Source: Streptomyces sp. ISL-100
GTDB lineage: Bacteria; Actinomycetota; Actinomycetes; Streptomycetales; Streptomycetaceae
Direction of reading: 5' to 3'
Assembly (NCBI RefSeq): GCF_018614615.1
Contig: NZ_JAGGOK010000065.1
Location: forward strand, 1 to 64,000
Length of the DNA: 64,000 nt
The number at the start of each line of letters is the position of its first letter. Position 1 is the stretch's first letter. The position numbers and the translations under genes are program-made. Of this stretch, positions 31,494 to 37,628 are shown one piece after another. The notes under the pieces are model-generated. The model was not told the DNA's origin and searched no databases. It was given only the letters and a program-made list of their open reading frames with translations.

Positions 31494-32785
31494 TGCGAAG
31501 CAGCAGCGGCAGGAACAGCGGAAGCGGTAACGACCGGAATCAGCGGGGCGCGGGCGCGGGCAAGGGGCGCGAGCGCGACGACAAGAAGCGCACCGAGCGT
31601 CCCGACCGCCCCCGTCCGGAAGAGCGCCGTTACGACGTCGGCCGTGACGCCCCTGGCGCCCGCGGCGGCAGTGGTGGTAGTGGCGCGGGCGGCGGCGGTC
31701 GTGGCGGCAGTGGTGCTGGACGCGGCGGCAGCGGCGCGGGCGCTGGACGCGGTGGAAGCGGCGCGGGCGCTGGACGTGGCGGCGCGGGCGCGGGCGGCGG
31801 GCGCGGTGGCGCGGGCGCGGGACGTGGCGGCAGCAGCTCCGGAGGCACCTCGAGCACCGGCAGCCGTGGCGCGTCCGCGCGCGGTGGCGCCAAGGGCGGC
31901 CCCAAGGCCCCGCAGGGCGGCTTCAGGACCCCTGGCCTGCGCCGTGGCCCGCAGAGTGCTCCTTCCCGGCCGCGTGAGCTCGACGCCAAGCTTGAGGAGC
32001 GCGTACGTGAGCGGCACAGCAAGCCCCAGGTGACGACGCCCAAGACGTTCCCCGGAGCCGAGCAGGAGGGTGAGCGCCTGCAGAAGGTCCTCGCCCGTGC
32101 GGGCATGGGTTCGCGGCGTGCCTGCGAGGAGCTGATCGAGCAGGCCCGGGTCGAGGTCAACGGCGAGATCGTGACCGAGCAGGGCAGGCGCGTCGACGTG
32201 CACAAGGACGAGGTCAAGGTCGACGGCCTGACGGTCGCCACCCAGTCGCACCTCTTCTTCGCGCTCAACAAGCCGGCCGGTGTCGTCGCCACCATGGGTG
32301 ACCCGGACGGCCGCCAGAACCTCAACGACTACGTGAACAACCGTGAGACGCGTCTCTTCCACGTGGGCCGGCTGGACACCGAGACCGAGGGCATCATCCT
32401 GCTCACCAACCACGGCGAGCTGGCCCACCGTCTGACGCACCCGAAGTACGGCGTGAAGAAGACCTACCTCGCCGCGATCCAGGGACCGCTTCCGCGTGAC
32501 CTCGGCAAGCGGCTCAAGGACGGCATCGCGCTGGAGGACGGGTACGCCCGCGCCGACCACTTCCGCGTCGTCGAGAACACCGGAAAGAACTACCTGGTCG
32601 AGGTCACCCTCCACGAGGGCCGCAAGCACATCGTGCGCCGCATGCTGGCCGAGGCCGGCTTCCCGGTCGAGCGGCTCGTGCGGACGTCCTTCGGGCCGAT
32701 CCCGCTGGGTGACCAGAAGTCCGGCTGGCTGCGCCGCCTCACCAACACCGAGGTCGGCATGCTGATGAAGGAAGTCGGCCTGTAA
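31493..32785 (+). CDS. RluB/RsuA-type pseudouridine synthase with Gly-rich N-terminus
   Basis: A 430-residue enzyme. Residues about 1-165 are a Gly/Arg/Ser/Ala-rich repeat tract (GRGGSGAGAGRGG and similar). An S4 RNA-binding domain follows (GERLQKVLARAGMGSRRACE, from about 192), then the catalytic domain with FALNKPAGVV and the GRLDTETEG motif (near 292) that carries the catalytic Asp. It modifies uridine in 23S rRNA or 16S rRNA; the scpAB-rluB order favours RluB. ATG 31493 overlaps the scpB stop. A strong terminator ends the operon. Confidence 0.92.
   Translation: MRSSSGRNSGSGNDRNQRGAGAGKGRERDDKKRTERPDRPRPEERRYDVGRDAPGARGGSGGSGAGGGGRGGSGAGRGGSGAGAGRGGSGAGAGRGGAGAGGGRGGAGAGRGGSSSGGTSSTGSRGASARGGAKGGPKAPQGGFRTPGLRRGPQSAPSRPRELDAKLEERVRERHSKPQVTTPKTFPGAEQEGERLQKVLARAGMGSRRACEELIEQARVEVNGEIVTEQGRRVDVHKDEVKVDGLTVATQSHLFFALNKPAGVVATMGDPDGRQNLNDYVNNRETRLFHVGRLDTETEGIILLTNHGELAHRLTHPKYGVKKTYLAAIQGPLPRDLGKRLKDGIALEDGYARADHFRVVENTGKNYLVEVTLHEGRKHIVRRMLAEAGFPVERLVRTSFGPIPLGDQKSGWLRRLTNTEVGMLMKEVGL
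31655..31850 (+). repeat. Short GGC-rich coding repeats in rluB-like gene
   Basis: Repeats of GGACGCGGTGGCAGCGGCGCGGGCGC-like units (given here by pattern, about 24-30 bases each) encode GRGGSGAGA blocks. They are imperfect and probably length-variable between strains. Confidence 0.75.
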
Positions 32786-32803
32786 CCGACGCCCTTTTGC
32801 CCG

Positions 32804-32850
32804 AAGCCCCGGGCGGTTCCTGTACGTACAGGAACCGCCCGGGGCTTTTT
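32804..32850 (+). terminator. Intrinsic terminator (44-bp perfect palindrome)
   Basis: AAGCCCCGGGCGGTTCCTGT-ACGT-ACAGGAACCGCCCGGGGCTT, centred at 32825/32826, is perfectly self-complementary over 44 bases and is followed by TTT. It terminates the parA-scpAB-rluB operon and insulates it from the NAD operon. Confidence 0.93.
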
Positions 32851-32875
32851 GCCGCTTGTGGAGCGGGCCTCCACT

Positions 32876-32902
32876 CCTTTATAGTCACCATGACCATAAA
32901 GG
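32876..32902. promoter_or_regulatory. Predicted NrtR operator
   Basis: A 27-base inverted repeat with arms CCTTTATAGTCA and TGACCATAAAGG (11 of 12 complementary positions) around a three-base centre. Its core TATAGTCA-NNN-TGACxATA resembles the palindromes reported for the NAD-metabolism repressor NrtR. It overlaps the ribosome binding site region of pnuC, and the third gene of the operon encodes an NrtR-type protein, so autoregulation is expected. Confidence 0.82.
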
Positions 32903-32910
32903 AGGCGGGC

Positions 32911-33567
32911 GTGAGTCTCGCGGACATACTCGAACCCCTGCAGCAGCCACTGGTCACCGTCCTGGACACCCCGGTGAGCTGGACCGAGGTCCTCGGGTTC
33001 GGCAGCGGCGCTCTCTGCGTCTGGCTCGTCGCCCGGCAGCACATCGCCAACTGGCCGATCGGCATGGCCAACAACCTCTTCTTCGTCCTCCTGTTCACCC
33101 AGGCGGGCCTGTACGCCGACGCCGGCCTGCAGGTCGTCTTCATCACCCTCGCTGCCTACGGCTGGTGGACCTGGACCCACGGGGGTGGACCAGGCTCCTC
33201 CGCGTCCCTGCCGGTACGGCGCACCAGCCGCACCGAGTGGACCTGGCTGCTGGCGGCGGGGGCGGTGGGGACCTTCGCTCTGACGCTCCTCCTCGACCGC
33301 GCGACCGATTCGACCGTTCCTTTCTGGGACTCCCTGACGACCGCGCTGTCCCTCATGGCGACGTACGGGCAGTGCAGGAAGCGCCTCGAATCGTGGTGGC
33401 TGTGGATCGCGGCCGACGTTGTGTACGTCCCTCTGTACGCCTACAAGGAGCTGTATCTGACGTCGCTCCTGTACGTCGGTTTCATGGCCCTGTGCGTTCT
33501 CGGGCTGCTCAATTGGCGGCGTGACGCGCGCTCCCGGGAACAGCTCGTCGCTCGGGCCGCGGCATGA
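32911..33567 (+). CDS. pnuC: PnuC nicotinamide riboside transporter
   Basis: A 218-residue membrane protein with about seven helices and the PnuC-type blocks GMANNLFFVLLFTQAGLYAD, GWWTWTHGG and WWLWIAADVVYVPLYAYKEL. PnuC passes nicotinamide riboside into the cell, where it is trapped by phosphorylation. GTG 32911 is chosen because AAAGGAGG ends six bases upstream; the in-frame ATG 32890 lies inside the operator palindrome. It overlaps the next gene by four bases (ATGA). Confidence 0.93.
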   Translation: MSLADILEPLQQPLVTVLDTPVSWTEVLGFGSGALCVWLVARQHIANWPIGMANNLFFVLLFTQAGLYADAGLQVVFITLAAYGWWTWTHGGGPGSSASLPVRRTSRTEWTWLLAAGAVGTFALTLLLDRATDSTVPFWDSLTTALSLMATYGQCRKRLESWWLWIAADVVYVPLYAYKELYLTSLLYVGFMALCVLGLLNWRRDARSREQLVARAAA

Positions 33568-34649
33568 CCGCGTACAAGCACGGACTCGTGCTCGGGAAGT
33601 TCTATCCGCCGCACGCGGGTCATCACCATCTCGTGCGCACCGCGCGGGAACGCTGCGAGCGGCTCACCGTCCTGGTCTGTGCCTCGTCCGCCGAGTCCGT
33701 GCCACTCACCGACAGGGTGGCGTGGATGCGGGCCGTGCACCCGGACGTTGATGTGGTCGGCGCCGTCGACGACATCCCCGTGGACACCACCGACCCCGCC
33801 GTGTGGGACGCGCACATGGCGGTCTTCCTGGCCGCTGTTCCGCAGCCCGTCGACGCCGTCTTCACTTCGGAGGCGTACGGCGAAGAGCTCGGCCGGCGCT
33901 TCGGTGCGGACGCGGTGTGCGTGGACCCGGACCGTACGGCCTTTCCTGTCTCGGGAACGGCCGTACGCGCCGATCCTGTCGGCCACTGGGACTACCTGGA
34001 GCGGCCGGTACGGGCCGCCCTCGCCCGGCGCGTGGTCGTTCTGGGGGCCGAGTCGACCGGGACCACGACCATGGCAAGGGCGCTCGCCGAGCACTACCGG
34101 CGCCGCGGCGGCGTATGGGAACGGACGCAGTGCGTTCCCGAGTACGGCCGGGAGTACAGCGAGCGGAAACTCGCCGCACTGCGCGAACGTCGCCCGGACG
34201 CCGACTGGGCGGACGTAGCCTTCACCACGCGGGAGTTCCCGCTGATCGCGCGGCGGCAGTGCCACGACGAGGACGCGGCGGCCGGAGCGGGCTCGCCCGT
34301 GCTGTTCTGTGACACCGATGCCTTCGCCACCACGGTGTGGCACGAGCGTTACCTGGGGGGCCCGAATACGGACGTCGCGCGGATCGCCGCAACCGCCAGG
34401 GGCAGGCAGCACCTGTGGCTGCTCACCGACCACGCCGGCGTGCCCTTCGAGGACGACGGCCTGCGCGACGGCGAACACCTGCGGCCCTGGATGACGGCAC
34501 GCTTCCGCGAGGAACTGACTCGTACAGGGCGCACATTCGTCACCCTCGGCGGACCGCACGAGAAGCGGCTCGCGGCCGCCGTCGCCGCCGTGGACGCGTT
34601 GCTCGCCGAGGGATGGGGCTTCACCGATCCCCTTCCGGAGAAGCGATGA
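33564..34649 (+). CDS. nadR: NadR-like NMN adenylyltransferase / ribosylnicotinamide kinase
   Basis: A 361-residue two-domain protein. The N-terminal nucleotidyltransferase domain has GKFYPPHAGHHHL (residues 11-23, HxGH site) and SGTAVRADP (near 129), matching the NMN adenylyltransferase ISGTxxR motif. The C-terminal P-loop domain, normally the ribosylnicotinamide kinase, has GAESTGTTTMARAL (159-172), with Thr in place of the usual P-loop Lys, then PEYGREY and a Walker-B-like CDTDAF. There is no N-terminal helix-turn-helix as in enterobacterial NadR. It should turn imported nicotinamide riboside or NMN into NAD; whether the kinase domain is active is open. Confidence 0.88.
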   Translation: MTAYKHGLVLGKFYPPHAGHHHLVRTARERCERLTVLVCASSAESVPLTDRVAWMRAVHPDVDVVGAVDDIPVDTTDPAVWDAHMAVFLAAVPQPVDAVFTSEAYGEELGRRFGADAVCVDPDRTAFPVSGTAVRADPVGHWDYLERPVRAALARRVVVLGAESTGTTTMARALAEHYRRRGGVWERTQCVPEYGREYSERKLAALRERRPDADWADVAFTTREFPLIARRQCHDEDAAAGAGSPVLFCDTDAFATTVWHERYLGGPNTDVARIAATARGRQHLWLLTDHAGVPFEDDGLRDGEHLRPWMTARFREELTRTGRTFVTLGGPHEKRLAAAVAAVDALLAEGWGFTDPLPEKR

Positions 34650-35389
34650 ACGAAGAGACCGATTACAACCCGCGCGACTTCGAGCCGTTCGCCGTCACCG
34701 TCGATCTCGCCGTCTTCACCGTGCGCGAGAGCCGCCTGCACGTTCTGCTGATCCGGCGCGGACAAGACCCGTACGCCGGGGCGTGGGCGCTGCCCGGCGG
34801 CTTCATACTGCCCCGTGAGTCCGCGGAAACCGCCGCCCGGCGCGAACTGGCCGAGGAGACCGGGCTGTCGCAGGAGTCCGCCGCCGCGCTCCACCTGGAG
34901 CAGCTGCGTACGTACAGCGAACCCGACCGCGATCCACGGATGCGCGTCGTCTCCGTCGCGTACACCGCGCTGGTGCCCGGTCTGCCGGAGCCGCGCGGCG
35001 GCGGTGACGCCGCGCACGCCCAGTGGATGCCCGTCGGCGGTGTGCCCGCGCTCGCCTTCGACCACGCGCGGATCATCACCGACGCACAGGAGCGCATCCG
35101 CGCCAAGCTCGAATACACCTGCCTGGCCACGGCTTTCTGCCCGCCCGAGTTCACGCTGGGCGAGCTCCAGCAGGTGTACGAGACGGTCTGGGGCGTAGAG
35201 CTCGACCGGCCCAACTTCCGGCGCAAGGTGCTCGCCTCGCCCGGCTTCGTGGAGCCGGTGGAAGGGGCGCCCCGGCGTACCGGAGGACGGGGGAAACCCG
35301 CCGCTCTCTACCGCGCGGGGAACGCCGCCGCTCTGCATCCACCACTTCTGCGCCCCGAACGACGATCCGAAGGAGAACGGTCAGAATGA
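34646..35389 (+). CDS. nrtR: NrtR-type Nudix-related transcriptional regulator
   Basis: A 247-residue protein: an N-terminal Nudix domain (VTVDLAVFTVRESRLHVLLI then WALPGGFI) and a C-terminal winged helix (FTLGELQQVYETVWG, PNFRRKVLAS). This architecture defines NrtR, a repressor of NAD-biosynthesis genes released by ADP-ribose-type ligands. The Nudix box here keeps all residues of the GX5EX7REUXEEXGU pattern (residues about 51-73), while many NrtR proteins have lost it. ATG 34646 overlaps the nadR stop (ATGA). The palindrome at 32876 is the likely binding site. Confidence 0.9.
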   Translation: MNEETDYNPRDFEPFAVTVDLAVFTVRESRLHVLLIRRGQDPYAGAWALPGGFILPRESAETAARRELAEETGLSQESAAALHLEQLRTYSEPDRDPRMRVVSVAYTALVPGLPEPRGGGDAAHAQWMPVGGVPALAFDHARIITDAQERIRAKLEYTCLATAFCPPEFTLGELQQVYETVWGVELDRPNFRRKVLASPGFVEPVEGAPRRTGGRGKPAALYRAGNAAALHPPLLRPERRSEGERSE

Positions 35390-36387
35390 AGCAGCCGGCT
35401 ACCGGTGCTCTCGTGGGACTCGCGCTGGGGGACGCGATGGGCTTCCCGACCGAGTTCAACGACGTACCCTCGATCCTCGCGAAGTGCGGTCCGTGGCGGG
35501 AGATGGAGCTGCCCGCGCCCGCGATCGTCACGGACGACACCCAGATGACGCTCGCGCTGGGGCGCGGGATACGGACGGCGATGGACCGTGGGGTGCTGGG
35601 GCCGCTGAGGCTGGCGCGGCCGGTGCGCGAGGAATTCGTGGACTGGTACCACTCGCCCCAGAACAACCGGGCCCCCGGCAACACCTGTCTCGTCGCCTGC
35701 CGGCTGCTCGACAGCGACCTGCCCTGGCAGCAGGCCAGTCAGCTTGGCTCCAAGGGGTGCGGGGCCAACATGCGGGTCGCGCCGGTCGGGCTCGTACCGG
35801 GGCTCAGCGAGGAACAGCGCGCCGGGGCGGCGCAGTTGCAGTCGGCGCTCACACACGGGCACCCGACGGCGCTGGCGGCGAGCGATCTGACGGCACGTGC
35901 GGTGTATCTGCTGGCGCAGGGGGCGGAGCCGACCGGTCTGGTGGGGCTCCTCCGTTCGTACGCGTACGAGAACCGCACCCAGTACCACGAGCACTGGCTG
36001 GGCGACCTGTGGACGCACGCACACGACGCCTCGCCGGAGGTTTTCATCGCCCGCGGCTGGGACGAGTGCCTGGCCGTACTGGAACGGCTCGCCGAGGCAC
36101 TGCGCTCACCGTCCCCCGAGACCGATCCGTGCCTGGCGACAGGTGACGGCTGGATCGCCGAGGAGGCGCTGGCGACCGCGCTGCTGTGCTTCCTGCTCTT
36201 CCCCGGGGAGCCGGTCACCGCCCTGCGCCGCGCCGCGTGTACCAAGGGCGACTCGGACTCGATCGCGTGCCTGGCGGGAGCGTTCGCGGGAGCGCACCTG
36301 GGAGCGGGCGTGTGGCCGGCCGAGTGGGCGGAACGCATCGAGTACAAAAGTGAGCTGCTGGCCCTGGGTGCGCTCTGGGATGCTTGA
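35386..36387 (+). CDS. ADP-ribosylglycohydrolase (DraG/ARH type)
   Basis: A 333-residue ADP-ribosylglycohydrolase-fold protein. It starts ATGALVGLALGDAMGFPTEF, carries the first metal-binding motif in TDDTQMTLAL (near 50-59) and the second in GDSDSIACLAGA (near 287-298), which together hold the binuclear metal site. Members remove ADP-ribose from protein or nucleic acid, or cleave ADP-ribose derivatives. ATG 35386 overlaps the nrtR stop and has AAGGAG about 9 bases upstream, so it is the last gene of the NAD operon. Its substrate is not evident. Confidence 0.92.
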   Translation: MKQPATGALVGLALGDAMGFPTEFNDVPSILAKCGPWREMELPAPAIVTDDTQMTLALGRGIRTAMDRGVLGPLRLARPVREEFVDWYHSPQNNRAPGNTCLVACRLLDSDLPWQQASQLGSKGCGANMRVAPVGLVPGLSEEQRAGAAQLQSALTHGHPTALAASDLTARAVYLLAQGAEPTGLVGLLRSYAYENRTQYHEHWLGDLWTHAHDASPEVFIARGWDECLAVLERLAEALRSPSPETDPCLATGDGWIAEEALATALLCFLLFPGEPVTALRRAACTKGDSDSIACLAGAFAGAHLGAGVWPAEWAERIEYKSELLALGALWDA

Positions 36388-36457
36388 TCAAAGGCGTGAG
36401 CGTCTGCGCGAGGACGTCGACACCTGCGACCACACCCCGCGCGCACTGACCACCGCC

Positions 36458-37150
36458 TCAGCGGGCTGAAGCGCGGCGTGTGCGGAGCAGGAAGTCCTCC
36501 ACGCGGGGGCGGTCCGGCTCCGGGGGGAGGGGGCTCTTCGGCGCGGCCGCTTCTGCCTCCGCCGCGAGCGCGTTCATCCGGCGGTCGACCTCCCGCCACG
36601 CCACCTCACCGCGCTTGACCGCGAGCAGGTGCTCGCGGTGCTCGCCGACGTCGATGACCAGCTCGCCCGTACGCAGCAGATCGCGGCAGCTGCCGAGCAG
36701 CCGCAGCAGGTGCATGGCGTGCTTCCAGCGGGGGGCGCCGTGCTGCCGTACGTCCGCCTCCAGCTTCTTGCGCCGGCCGGCCGCGTACCGGACGAACGTC
36801 TGATGGACCTGGCGGGAGAGGAACGCCTCACGCAGGGCGAGCAGCTCGCGGCCGGTGGCGTCGACGTGCTCGACCAGCGGGGAGTGCAGGCACTCCAGGA
36901 TGTTGGGGTTGGCGCGCAGGGCCAGCTCGCAGAAACGTTCCAGCTCCCAGGAGAACTGCTCGTCCGCCGGCCCCTCGACATGCGTCGGCGGCTTCTCGAA
37001 GCGCCAGTACAGCGGCGTCGGCGCCACGAAGACGCCACGCCGGTCCGTGTCGCTGCCGTCCGTGGCCAGGCCGAAGGCACGTGAGCCCATCACGCAGGAG
37101 TAGACAGTGTGGTCGCGTACGAGGTCTTCAGGCACGGCGGGCGGGATCAT
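36458..37150 (-). CDS. RlaP/YcgL-like predicted nucleotidyltransferase
   Basis: A 230-residue protein with the pol-beta-type nucleotidyltransferase motif GSRAFGLATDGSDTDRRG (residues about 21-38), then YWRFEKPPTHVEG and a helical C-terminal part (KHAMHLLRLLGSCRDLL). It resembles the YcgL/RlaP group, which has been proposed to act in RNA repair or end modification. ATG 37150 is chosen because the longer frame would overlap the Rieske gene. It is convergent with the ADP-ribosylglycohydrolase gene and 19 bases downstream of the Rieske gene. Confidence 0.82.
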   Translation of the reverse strand: MIPPAVPEDLVRDHTVYSCVMGSRAFGLATDGSDTDRRGVFVAPTPLYWRFEKPPTHVEGPADEQFSWELERFCELALRANPNILECLHSPLVEHVDATGRELLALREAFLSRQVHQTFVRYAAGRRKKLEADVRQHGAPRWKHAMHLLRLLGSCRDLLRTGELVIDVGEHREHLLAVKRGEVAWREVDRRMNALAAEAEAAAPKSPLPPEPDRPRVEDFLLRTRRASAR

Positions 37151-37169
37151 GCCCCGGATTGTGCCGCAG

Positions 37170-37628
37170 TCAGGCCAGCCGGATCGAACCACTTTCCACG
37201 ATGATCTGGCGCCGCGGCAGCGGCTTTTGGGCCGGGCCGCCCTCGACCGAGGCGTCCGCGACGCGGAACTTGCTGCCGTGACAGGCGCAGTTGATGGTGC
37301 CGCCCTCGACGGTGCTGACCGTGCAGCCCTGATGGGTGCAGACCGCGGAGAAGGCTTTGAAGCTGCCTTCCTCCGGCTGCGTGACCACGACCTTCTCGCC
37401 CTTGAAGATTTTTCCGCCGCCCACCGGGATCTCCGTGGTCTTCGCGAGCGCCGTGCCGCCGCCGGGCGATTCCCCGGACGGGACGGGCGGCTCCGACGGC
37501 GCCGGTTCGGTCTCCTCGGCGCTGCCGCCGTTCTCGTCGCCGTACTCGCTGCAACCGGCCGTCAGCGCGGTGCCGGCCGCTGCGGCGGCGGCCGTGAGGA
37601 CCGCCCGGCGGCTCGTGCCCTTGCCCAT
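37170..37628 (-). CDS. Exported Rieske [2Fe-2S] protein
   Basis: A 152-residue protein. The N-terminus has a twin-arginine motif SRRAVL, a hydrophobic Ala-rich stretch and a lipobox-like LTAGC, suggesting a Tat-exported lipoprotein. A Pro/Ser/Glu-rich linker follows, then a Rieske domain with CTHQGC (near 94-99) and CACHGS (near 113-118), complete Cys/His ligand sets. ATG 37628 has GAGGAG six bases upstream; a GTG lies three bases earlier. It lies 10 bases behind a gene for a multi-helix membrane protein, so the two may form an electron-transfer unit. The redox partner is unknown. Confidence 0.9.
   Translation of the reverse strand: MGKGTSRRAVLTAAAAAAGTALTAGCSEYGDENGGSAEETEPAPSEPPVPSGESPGGGTALAKTTEIPVGGGKIFKGEKVVVTQPEEGSFKAFSAVCTHQGCTVSTVEGGTINCACHGSKFRVADASVEGGPAQKPLPRRQIIVESGSIRLA

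Follow-up and report, generated by a model that had tools for sequence, protein, structure and literature searches.

A conserved Streptomyces operon with a predicted NrtR operator, an ADP-ribosylhydrolase gene and a variable pair of NAD salvage genes

Regulons in which NrtR controls nicotinamide adenine dinucleotide (NAD) metabolism were reportedly described by Rodionov in 2008. NrtR regulons that take in salvage genes are also known, as in the nadR-pnuC-nrtR group of S. suis cited in passages of PMC6800001. A second kind of system, operons that join an ADP-ribosylglycohydrolase (ARG) to a Nudix- or WYL-type regulator and are induced by released ADP-ribose, was proposed in 2022 as anti-viral by Iyer and co-workers (PMC9503650), and the phage-conflict role of ARG-centred systems is a prediction in that paper. 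For S. coelicolor, passages of PMC5087735 and PMC9411070 list seven and eight uncharacterised DraG/ARH homologues, respectively, both naming SCO1766, and present the transferases and the physiological role of Streptomyces ADP-ribosylation as largely open. Here we analysed a stretch of 64,000 nucleotides from Streptomyces sp. ISL-100 (the window), which belongs to an 8.7-Mb genome (G000, contig C117) and carries, on the + strand and in this order, pnuC, a nadR-like gene, nrtR and arh, the last encoding an ADP-ribosylhydrolase-family protein. We find that this operon is a real, conserved and well-delimited regulatory unit, and we put at roughly three in four the probability that it is run by its own NrtR through repression of pnuC-nadR-nrtR-arh that ADP-ribose relieves.

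We searched the NrtR protein in 120 related genomes, 73 of them of the same genus (that of the window included), and compared 47 loci: the window and 46 same-genus neighbourhoods at 71-82% identity (type A), drawn from 45 genomes, with two copies in G024. Outside the 47 stand L079 of G073 (a different family, with no arh adjoining and no site there, 9/20 on the operator scale given below), G028 (nrtR at a contig edge) and G046 (nrtR-A in two pieces, L182). A second set held 80 loci of the closest relatives of nrtR, all from Streptomyces, one titled [Kitasatospora] papulosa; its species overlap partly with those of the first set. In the first set, arh directly followed nrtR in 46/47 loci, and the sole locus without it was the second copy of G024, a genome that splits pnuC-nadR-nrtR from nrtR-arh. 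The pnuC-nadR pair preceded nrtR in 26/47 loci (one, L062, with only part of pnuC matching). In the second set, arh followed nrtR in 79/80 loci, and nrtR was preceded by pnuC-nadR in 45, by neither gene in 31 and by part of the pair in 4. Because the counts are 46/47 versus 26/47, we regard nrtR-arh as the constant core of the unit and pnuC-nadR as a part of it that varies. The original prediction had described the repressor together with uptake and conversion genes; across these loci the constant partner of nrtR is arh and not the salvage genes. Upstream lay rluB in 44/47 loci, and within the fetched stretch 41/47 had an RlaP-type gene downstream in convergent orientation. In L182, where nrtR-A matches in two pieces, operator, pnuC-nadR and arh are still present.

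A palindrome heads this unit in 47/47 loci. In the window it spans 27 bp at 32876-32902, before pnuC as originally described; 11 of its 12 arm pairs match, and it is extendable to 32874-32904. We scored loci with a fixed pattern, TTWATAGTCANNNTGACTATWAA, which has 20 scored positions and was designed after the first palindromes had been seen. The best window 5′ of the first gene scored 15-20 of 20 in all 47 Streptomyces nrtR-A loci. Scores of at least 15 were reached by 104 of 669,090 windows (L033-L079, both strands), and all 104 lay within 40 bases of an operator. By the same scan 78/80 loci of the second set scored 17-20; the remaining two, L235 and L302, have sites scoring 19 and 20 just outside the scanned stretch, directly 5′ of nadR or of a truncated pnuC. 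At up to 3 mismatches, the pattern matched once in the window (both strands), versus 0 in 100 shuffles, once in the whole 8.7-Mb genome, and in 54 of the 120 genomes; reversed-pattern controls gave 0 in the ISL-100 genome (one place per strand for a looser pattern) and 0 in the 73 same-genus genomes. The position of the operator follows the first gene of the unit: it lies 5′ of nrtR wherever pnuC-nadR is missing, and in G073, which has nrtR-A, an A-type operator lies 5′ of a separate pnuC-nadR. Double, closely spaced or overlapping operators precede nrtR in L061, L066, L071, L072, L074 and L075, which have no pnuC-nadR.

The operator probably overlies the promoter, as expected of a repressor site. 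The strong terminator that the original prediction had placed ahead of the palindrome is borne out by a 21-pair hairpin followed by Ts at 32803-32850 (RNA fold −47.7 kcal/mol, z −8), although it escaped a simple terminator scan. Such a strong hairpin after rluB implies that the operon needs its own promoter, with the start expected in the ∼60 bases 5′ of pnuC. There, the hexamer TATAGT within the left arm of the palindrome fits a −10 box, and a TTG occurs 16-19 bases 5′ of this second hexamer in 29/47 loci, compared to a mean of 2.5 and a maximum of 8 for shuffled upstreams; the spacing range was picked after the sequences had been seen. A sigma-70 consensus scan of 32700-36600 returned no promoter, and the −35/−10 reading rests on conservation.

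The strongest new evidence is that regulator and operator change together, and that sites are kept separately before arh and before pnuC-nadR. A second NrtR, type B (∼60% identical), is encoded in most of the compared genomes, and some have a third kind (51-58%); in the ISL-100 genome the second nrtR lies at C77:53116-53868. In a sister family of the same order (f3, 14 genomes), there is no type-A copy among the matches listed, and each genome has 3 to 6 sites of the TTATCGTCA-N3-TGACGATAA type. Twenty further f3 stretches around such sites contained nadA (7), nadE (1), pncB-pncA (2), PARG (2), a Band_7 operon (3) and pnuC-nadR (1), and domain scans back NadA, NAD synthase, NAPRTase, isochorismatase-type PncA, Band_7, PnuC and PARG in at least one example each. 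The nrtR gene itself has a B-type site in G076, G081, G083 and, by position, G080, and the more distantly related genome G089 has a similar site 5′ of an nrtR adjoining nadA. In the ISL-100 genome, a looser type-B pattern matched 22 places at up to 3 mismatches versus 10 for the reversed control, and at 2 mismatches it matched four: the type-A operator, a site before the second nrtR, a site before nadA, and C137:639. The regulon had been called self-contained, which holds for the first NrtR type but not for the genome, where a second NrtR has sister sites, one at its gene and another at nadA. Likewise, the suggested search for the palindrome at other NAD genes found the A-type site once only (up to 3 mismatches), but the sister type before nadA and the second nrtR.

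We found arh in 60/73 same-genus genomes, or 58 after setting aside G051 and G060 (fragments elsewhere), and 48 of the 58 have nrtR-A (46 fetched, plus G028 and G046). The other 10 have arh beside rluB and no nrtR-A, and in 8 of them a B-type palindrome precedes arh (G003, G010, G014, which is the weakest, G016, G017, G020, G036 and G048). Units with nadR were found in 33/120 genomes, and 33/33 lie behind an A- or B-type site: A-type in 27 same-genus nrtR-A genomes (G046 included) and in G073, and B-type, before pnuC-nadR, in 5/5 genomes without nrtR-A (G043 and the f3 genomes G081, G083, G086 and G087). The variable half-site base is A in 43/47 nrtR-A loci and C or T in 8/8 arh-only sites (Fisher 4e-7, a value that overstates independence and is no true probability because the genomes are related). 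The recognition helix reads LDRPNFRRKVL in type A (46 sequences) and LDPRNFHRKVT in type B (7), the sequences left after rows with a stop were dropped from the alignment. According to passages of PMC6800001, DNA binding by MsNrtR needs D167, T169, N170, R173, K179 and R196; by our own alignment and motif reading, the recognition-helix stretch holds residues essential in MsNrtR, and T169 falls on the P/R difference. In a tree of 38 NrtR rows, type A and the G073 copy form one clade (100/99). Type-B and other rows are unresolved with long branches in the same tree, and for this reason we claim no date for the NrtR duplication. Taken together, these sequence comparisons indicate that regulator type and operator type change together, and they suggest that type-A NrtR is a specialised sister of the second NrtR with TTATCGTCA-N3-TGACGATAA sites, homology pointing to which NrtR would read which site.

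The domain content of the regulator agrees with the NrtR-type repressor that had been predicted. NrtR-A has an N-terminal Nudix domain (PF00293, 5.5e-23) and a C-terminal NrtR winged helix (PF21906, 1.1e-16), and its residues 6-223 align with SoNrtR (3gz5, E value 2.9e-29). Passages of PMC4666351 name Tyr10, Arg41 and Arg98 as the ADP-ribose contacts of SoNrtR. These three residues, the ones that we checked, map to Y7, R38 and R98 and are kept in 46/46 type-A and 7/7 type-B aligned sequences. A canonical Nudix box is present in 48/48 first-set sequences (L079 included), in 80/80 of the second set and in 7 type-B or related sequences (L080-L086). According to passages of PMC4666351, NrtR regulators of NAD metabolism have an impaired Nudix box, and MsNrtR is inactive as a Nudix enzyme according to passages of PMC6800001. 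Given the intact box, we predict that these NrtRs may also hydrolyse their ligand and so reset themselves.

In the NadR-like protein (TIGR01526 185 bits, below the cut-off of 341), the adenylyltransferase motif GKFxPxHxGH is present in the window copy, and the 26 first-set copies read GKFYPPHAGH (24), GKFYPPHTGH (1) or have no match (1). The kinase Walker A motif has threonine in place of the lysine in all 26 (GAESTGTTT in 25, GAESSGTTT in 1); GAESTGTTT also occurs in 46/47 nadR copies of the second set and in the f3 copy that we read (L192). The kinase may work in another way, or the protein may perform only the adenylyl step, and the original statement that the operon encodes both uptake and conversion of nicotinamide riboside is doubtful in that form. 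In L235 (Streptomyces omiyaensis), a divergent nadR-like gene (53%) with the P-loop GGGSTGTTT and no recognisable pnuC still lies behind the operator. For ARH, the nearest solved structures by sequence are DraG (2woe, E value 4.6e-15) and ARH3, and among 46 copies GDSDS is found in 46, the DDTQM pattern in 45 and the LGDxxG pattern in 42. The DDT and DSD motifs of PF03747 enzymes presumably belong to the metal site. ARH falls below the equivalog cut-offs for DraG (TIGR02662, 67 versus 337) and Tri1 (62 versus 490).

These data suggest a mechanism in which an NrtR dimer on TTTATAGTCA-N3-TGACTATTAA would cover the probable −10 box and block transcription of pnuC-nadR-nrtR-arh. When ADP-ribose rises, from NAD breakdown or from ADP-ribosylated targets, it would bind the Nudix domain and release NrtR; uptake of an NAD precursor, rebuilding of NAD and stripping of ADP-ribose from targets would follow, and NrtR may then cleave its inducer through the intact Nudix box and so reset itself. 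We infer repression, ADP-ribose as the ligand and the enzyme activities from homology. In some genomes arh and the salvage genes lie behind such sites independently of each other, so the system is most simply read as a common ADP-ribose response that rebuilds NAD and clears ADP-ribose from targets.

Several results weigh against this reading. NrtR-A scores 132.5 bits against a cut-off of 400 in the NCBIfam NtrR equivalog NF050029; the equivalog is narrow, so the shortfall denies the name and not the family. The missing P-loop lysine weakens the salvage interpretation. Type-B-like sites also lie away from NAD genes: four of the 20 further f3 stretches (L194, L197, L199 and L200) hold none of the genes listed above, the sites of L199 and L200 (G078) are not at an NAD gene, and none of the searched genes lies beside C137:639 in the ISL-100 genome. 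Conversely, no site precedes arh in two of the ten arh-only genomes (G009 and G026), at the two f3 arh loci examined, or at the arh homologue (58%) located elsewhere in G073, which has nrtR-A. According to passages of PMC6800001, NdnR of C. glutamicum responds to NAD. Among the papers examined, we found none that assayed DNA binding, expression or enzymatic activity for this NrtR or arh.

NdnR, treated in passages of PMC6800001 and PMC4666351, is an actinobacterial precedent for the possibility that NrtR-A senses NAD as a co-repressor and that arh is co-regulated merely as a gene of NAD turnover; with all three checked ADP-ribose contacts of SoNrtR kept, we consider this improbable. The origin of the ADP-ribose is a separate question. 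ADP-ribose freed by ARH from modified macromolecules could be the main inducer, so that ARH drives its own operon. Such a loop was part of the original prediction, stays conjectural here, and had already been proposed for ARG + Nudix-regulator operons by Iyer and co-workers in 2022 (PMC9503650); the constancy of the nrtR-arh core (46/47 loci) and the preservation of the ARH motifs in almost all 46 copies are in keeping with it. However, NAD cleavage also yields free ADP-ribose, and pnuC-nadR stands under such a site without an adjoining arh in G073, G043 and f3 genomes, which implies that an arh within the operon is dispensable for the salvage response. We therefore view arh as the main source of inducer as speculative, the loop as unlikely to be the principal mechanism, and a feedback through arh as an optional extra to the common ADP-ribose response.

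The same core architecture, ARG with a Nudix regulator, is that of the conflict systems in the sense of Iyer 2022 (PMC9503650), in which arh would strip phage-added ADP-ribose from host molecules and the salvage genes would replace spent NAD. NrtR-type sites before SIR2-like candidate defence genes in 3/3 carrier genomes of the 120 (two noticed through the site) would fit such a role. On the other hand, the unit has a fixed chromosomal place, with rluB upstream in nearly all loci, and its genes include no partner phosphatase, chaperone or nuclease, such partners being frequent but not obligatory in ARG systems (PMC9503650); PADLOC gave no hit for arh and a weak one for nrtR (PDC-S07, 2e-7). 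We give a conflict role little credence and judge a housekeeping setting more likely. Finally, the palindrome could act as an RNA hairpin that hides the pnuC ribosome-binding site, as one arm overlaps GGAGG in the window and the leader folds (z −2.7). Across the 47 loci its pairing is not conserved: 36 loci have a mismatch at the third pair of the 23-base core, only 3 cores are fully paired, and the first flanking pair is non-complementary in 23. Moreover, the same core sits before nrtR at other distances, and a −10 box within the palindrome would put the RNA start in or after it. The hairpin reading is thus very improbable and we reject it in favor of a DNA operator.

Beyond this operon, we tentatively propose, at slightly less than even odds, that NrtR of Streptomyces and its sister family commands an ADP-ribose response that goes beyond NAD supply. 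This response would comprise NAD resynthesis (nadA, nadE, pncBA and pnuC-nadR), lineage-specific enzymes that remove ADP-ribose (ARH in Streptomyces; in 3 genomes of the sister family, a macrodomain enzyme of PARG type) and, in the three genomes carrying one, a SIR2-like candidate defence gene. Of the two NrtR copies in Streptomyces, the one with the TATAGTCA site would have arh and pnuC-nadR, and these targets mostly carry the site of the other copy where that first copy is missing.

The SIR2-like genes (PF13289, PADLOC candidate PDC-S65) are preceded by a type-B-like site, 97-132 bases from the match, and occur in 3/120 genomes from two families (L340 of G085, L341 of G020 and L342 of G079; also L105 and L135). 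Only the G079 case is independent, because the other two were noticed through the site, and we regard the gene as a candidate for a defence function controlled by an NAD/ADP-ribose repressor. A microbial PARG gene lies behind an NrtR-type site in three f3 genomes of genera g4/g5 (L191 of G081, L204 of G080 and L208 of G076). L191 and L208 were confirmed as PF10021 matches, and the copy of G080, which matches in two pieces and contains a stop, may be broken. PARG matches were found in 68/120 genomes, and the best 30 were scanned for sites: one had a site at up to 2 mismatches and 29 had none, the G080 and G076 cases having been found from the site side. We reject PARG as a general NrtR target. 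A Band_7/SPFH gene with an unnamed second gene is a recurrent type-B-like target, several with two sites ∼33-34 bases apart, in Streptomyces (L144, L147, L150, L151, L155, L157, L160, L162-L165, L167, L168 and L172) and in f3 (L189, L193, L196 and L202). Paired NrtR-type sites also occur in L194, L197 and L229 (f3, genus g3); in L194 and L197 they lie between divergent genes, one product, which had no Pfam hit, having a DVTGS motif that resembles a vWA metal site.

The features of the window are collected in Table 1. As originally predicted, the four genes form one operon: domain profiles identify each, and each junction is a 4-base overlap. The RlaP-type gene is listed as a convergent neighbor and, at most, a candidate member of the unit. 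In several arh-only genomes another RlaP-type gene lies 3′ of arh on the same strand (L096, L107, L112 and L175); it overlaps arh in L096, and PF10127 was confirmed for L107 and L175.

Table 1. Features of the operon and its surroundings in the window (NMN, nicotinamide mononucleotide).
Feature	Coordinates	Strand	Basis
Probable intrinsic terminator behind rluB: hairpin with a T run	32803..32850	+	fold + sequence
Probable promoter: TTGTGG, 18-bp spacer, TATAGT	32856..32885	+	sequence; TTG spacing count in 47 loci
NrtR operator (predicted), core 32878-32900 TTTATAGTCACCATGACCATAAA	32874..32904	.	sequence, conservation
pnuC, nicotinamide riboside/NMN transporter	32911..33567	+	PF04973 E 1.2e-58; TIGR01528 106.8 bits, cut-off 42.45
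nadR-like: NMN adenylyltransferase + ribosylnicotinamide-kinase-like domain, altered P-loop GAESTGTTT	33564..34649	+	CTP_transf_like + AAA_28
nrtR (type A): Nudix sensor, canonical Nudix box + NrtR winged helix	34646..35389	+	PF00293, PF21906
arh: DraG/ARH-family ADP-ribosylhydrolase; LGDAMG, VTDDTQM and GDSDS motifs	35386..36387	+	PF03747 E 2.1e-63
RlaP-type nucleotidyltransferase, convergent neighbor of arh	36458..37192	-	PF10127 E 7.8e-34

For S. coelicolor we tentatively take SCO1767 to be this nrtR, from its numbering next to the DraG homologue SCO1766 and from gene order rather than from a sequence match, and SCO1766 is, from gene order, probably the orthologue of this arh. In tables of PMC6637917, SCO1767 (‘DNA hydrolase’) is up by log2 1.92 and 1.81 with topA lowered or raised, and the same tables list dnaE2, dinP and uvrA and, in the raised-topA case, also recA and lexA. 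This rise would be a hint of stress induction of nrtR. A literature search of titles, abstract starts and passages found no paper describing this operon with its operator; Rodionov 2008 and Huang 2009 lie outside that search and may hold arh in Streptomyces NrtR regulons. The mapped operator and its regulator offer a direct handle on Streptomyces ADP-ribosylation, as a condition that induces the promoter would be one in which the ligand, probably ADP-ribose, rises. In addition, the two paralogues, whose half-sites diverge chiefly at a single base and whose helix residues are swapped, provide a natural test of the way in which a repressor changes its DNA specificity.

Compared with DraG, ARH1 and ARH3, the arh product shares the PF03747 family and its DDT and DSD motifs but lies below the DraG and Tri1 equivalog cut-offs. 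With the ARG systems of Iyer and co-workers, in actinobacteria as elsewhere, the locus shares an ADP-ribosylglycohydrolase adjoining a Nudix-HTH regulator, with no ADP-ribosyltransferase among the operon genes and named neighbors; unlike them, it has NAD salvage genes joined, a fixed chromosomal locus and a mapped operator, and it lacks a phosphatase or chaperone. The NrtR regulons of NAD metabolism are alike in their Nudix + winged-helix repressor, their palindromic operator at NAD genes and the company of pnuC or nadR with nrtR, whereas here the constant partner is arh, the sites of the two NrtR paralogues can be told apart, and the Nudix box is canonical, in type B too. The operon thus adds to the known NrtR regulons and to the ARG + Nudix-regulator operons, both kinds having been known before.

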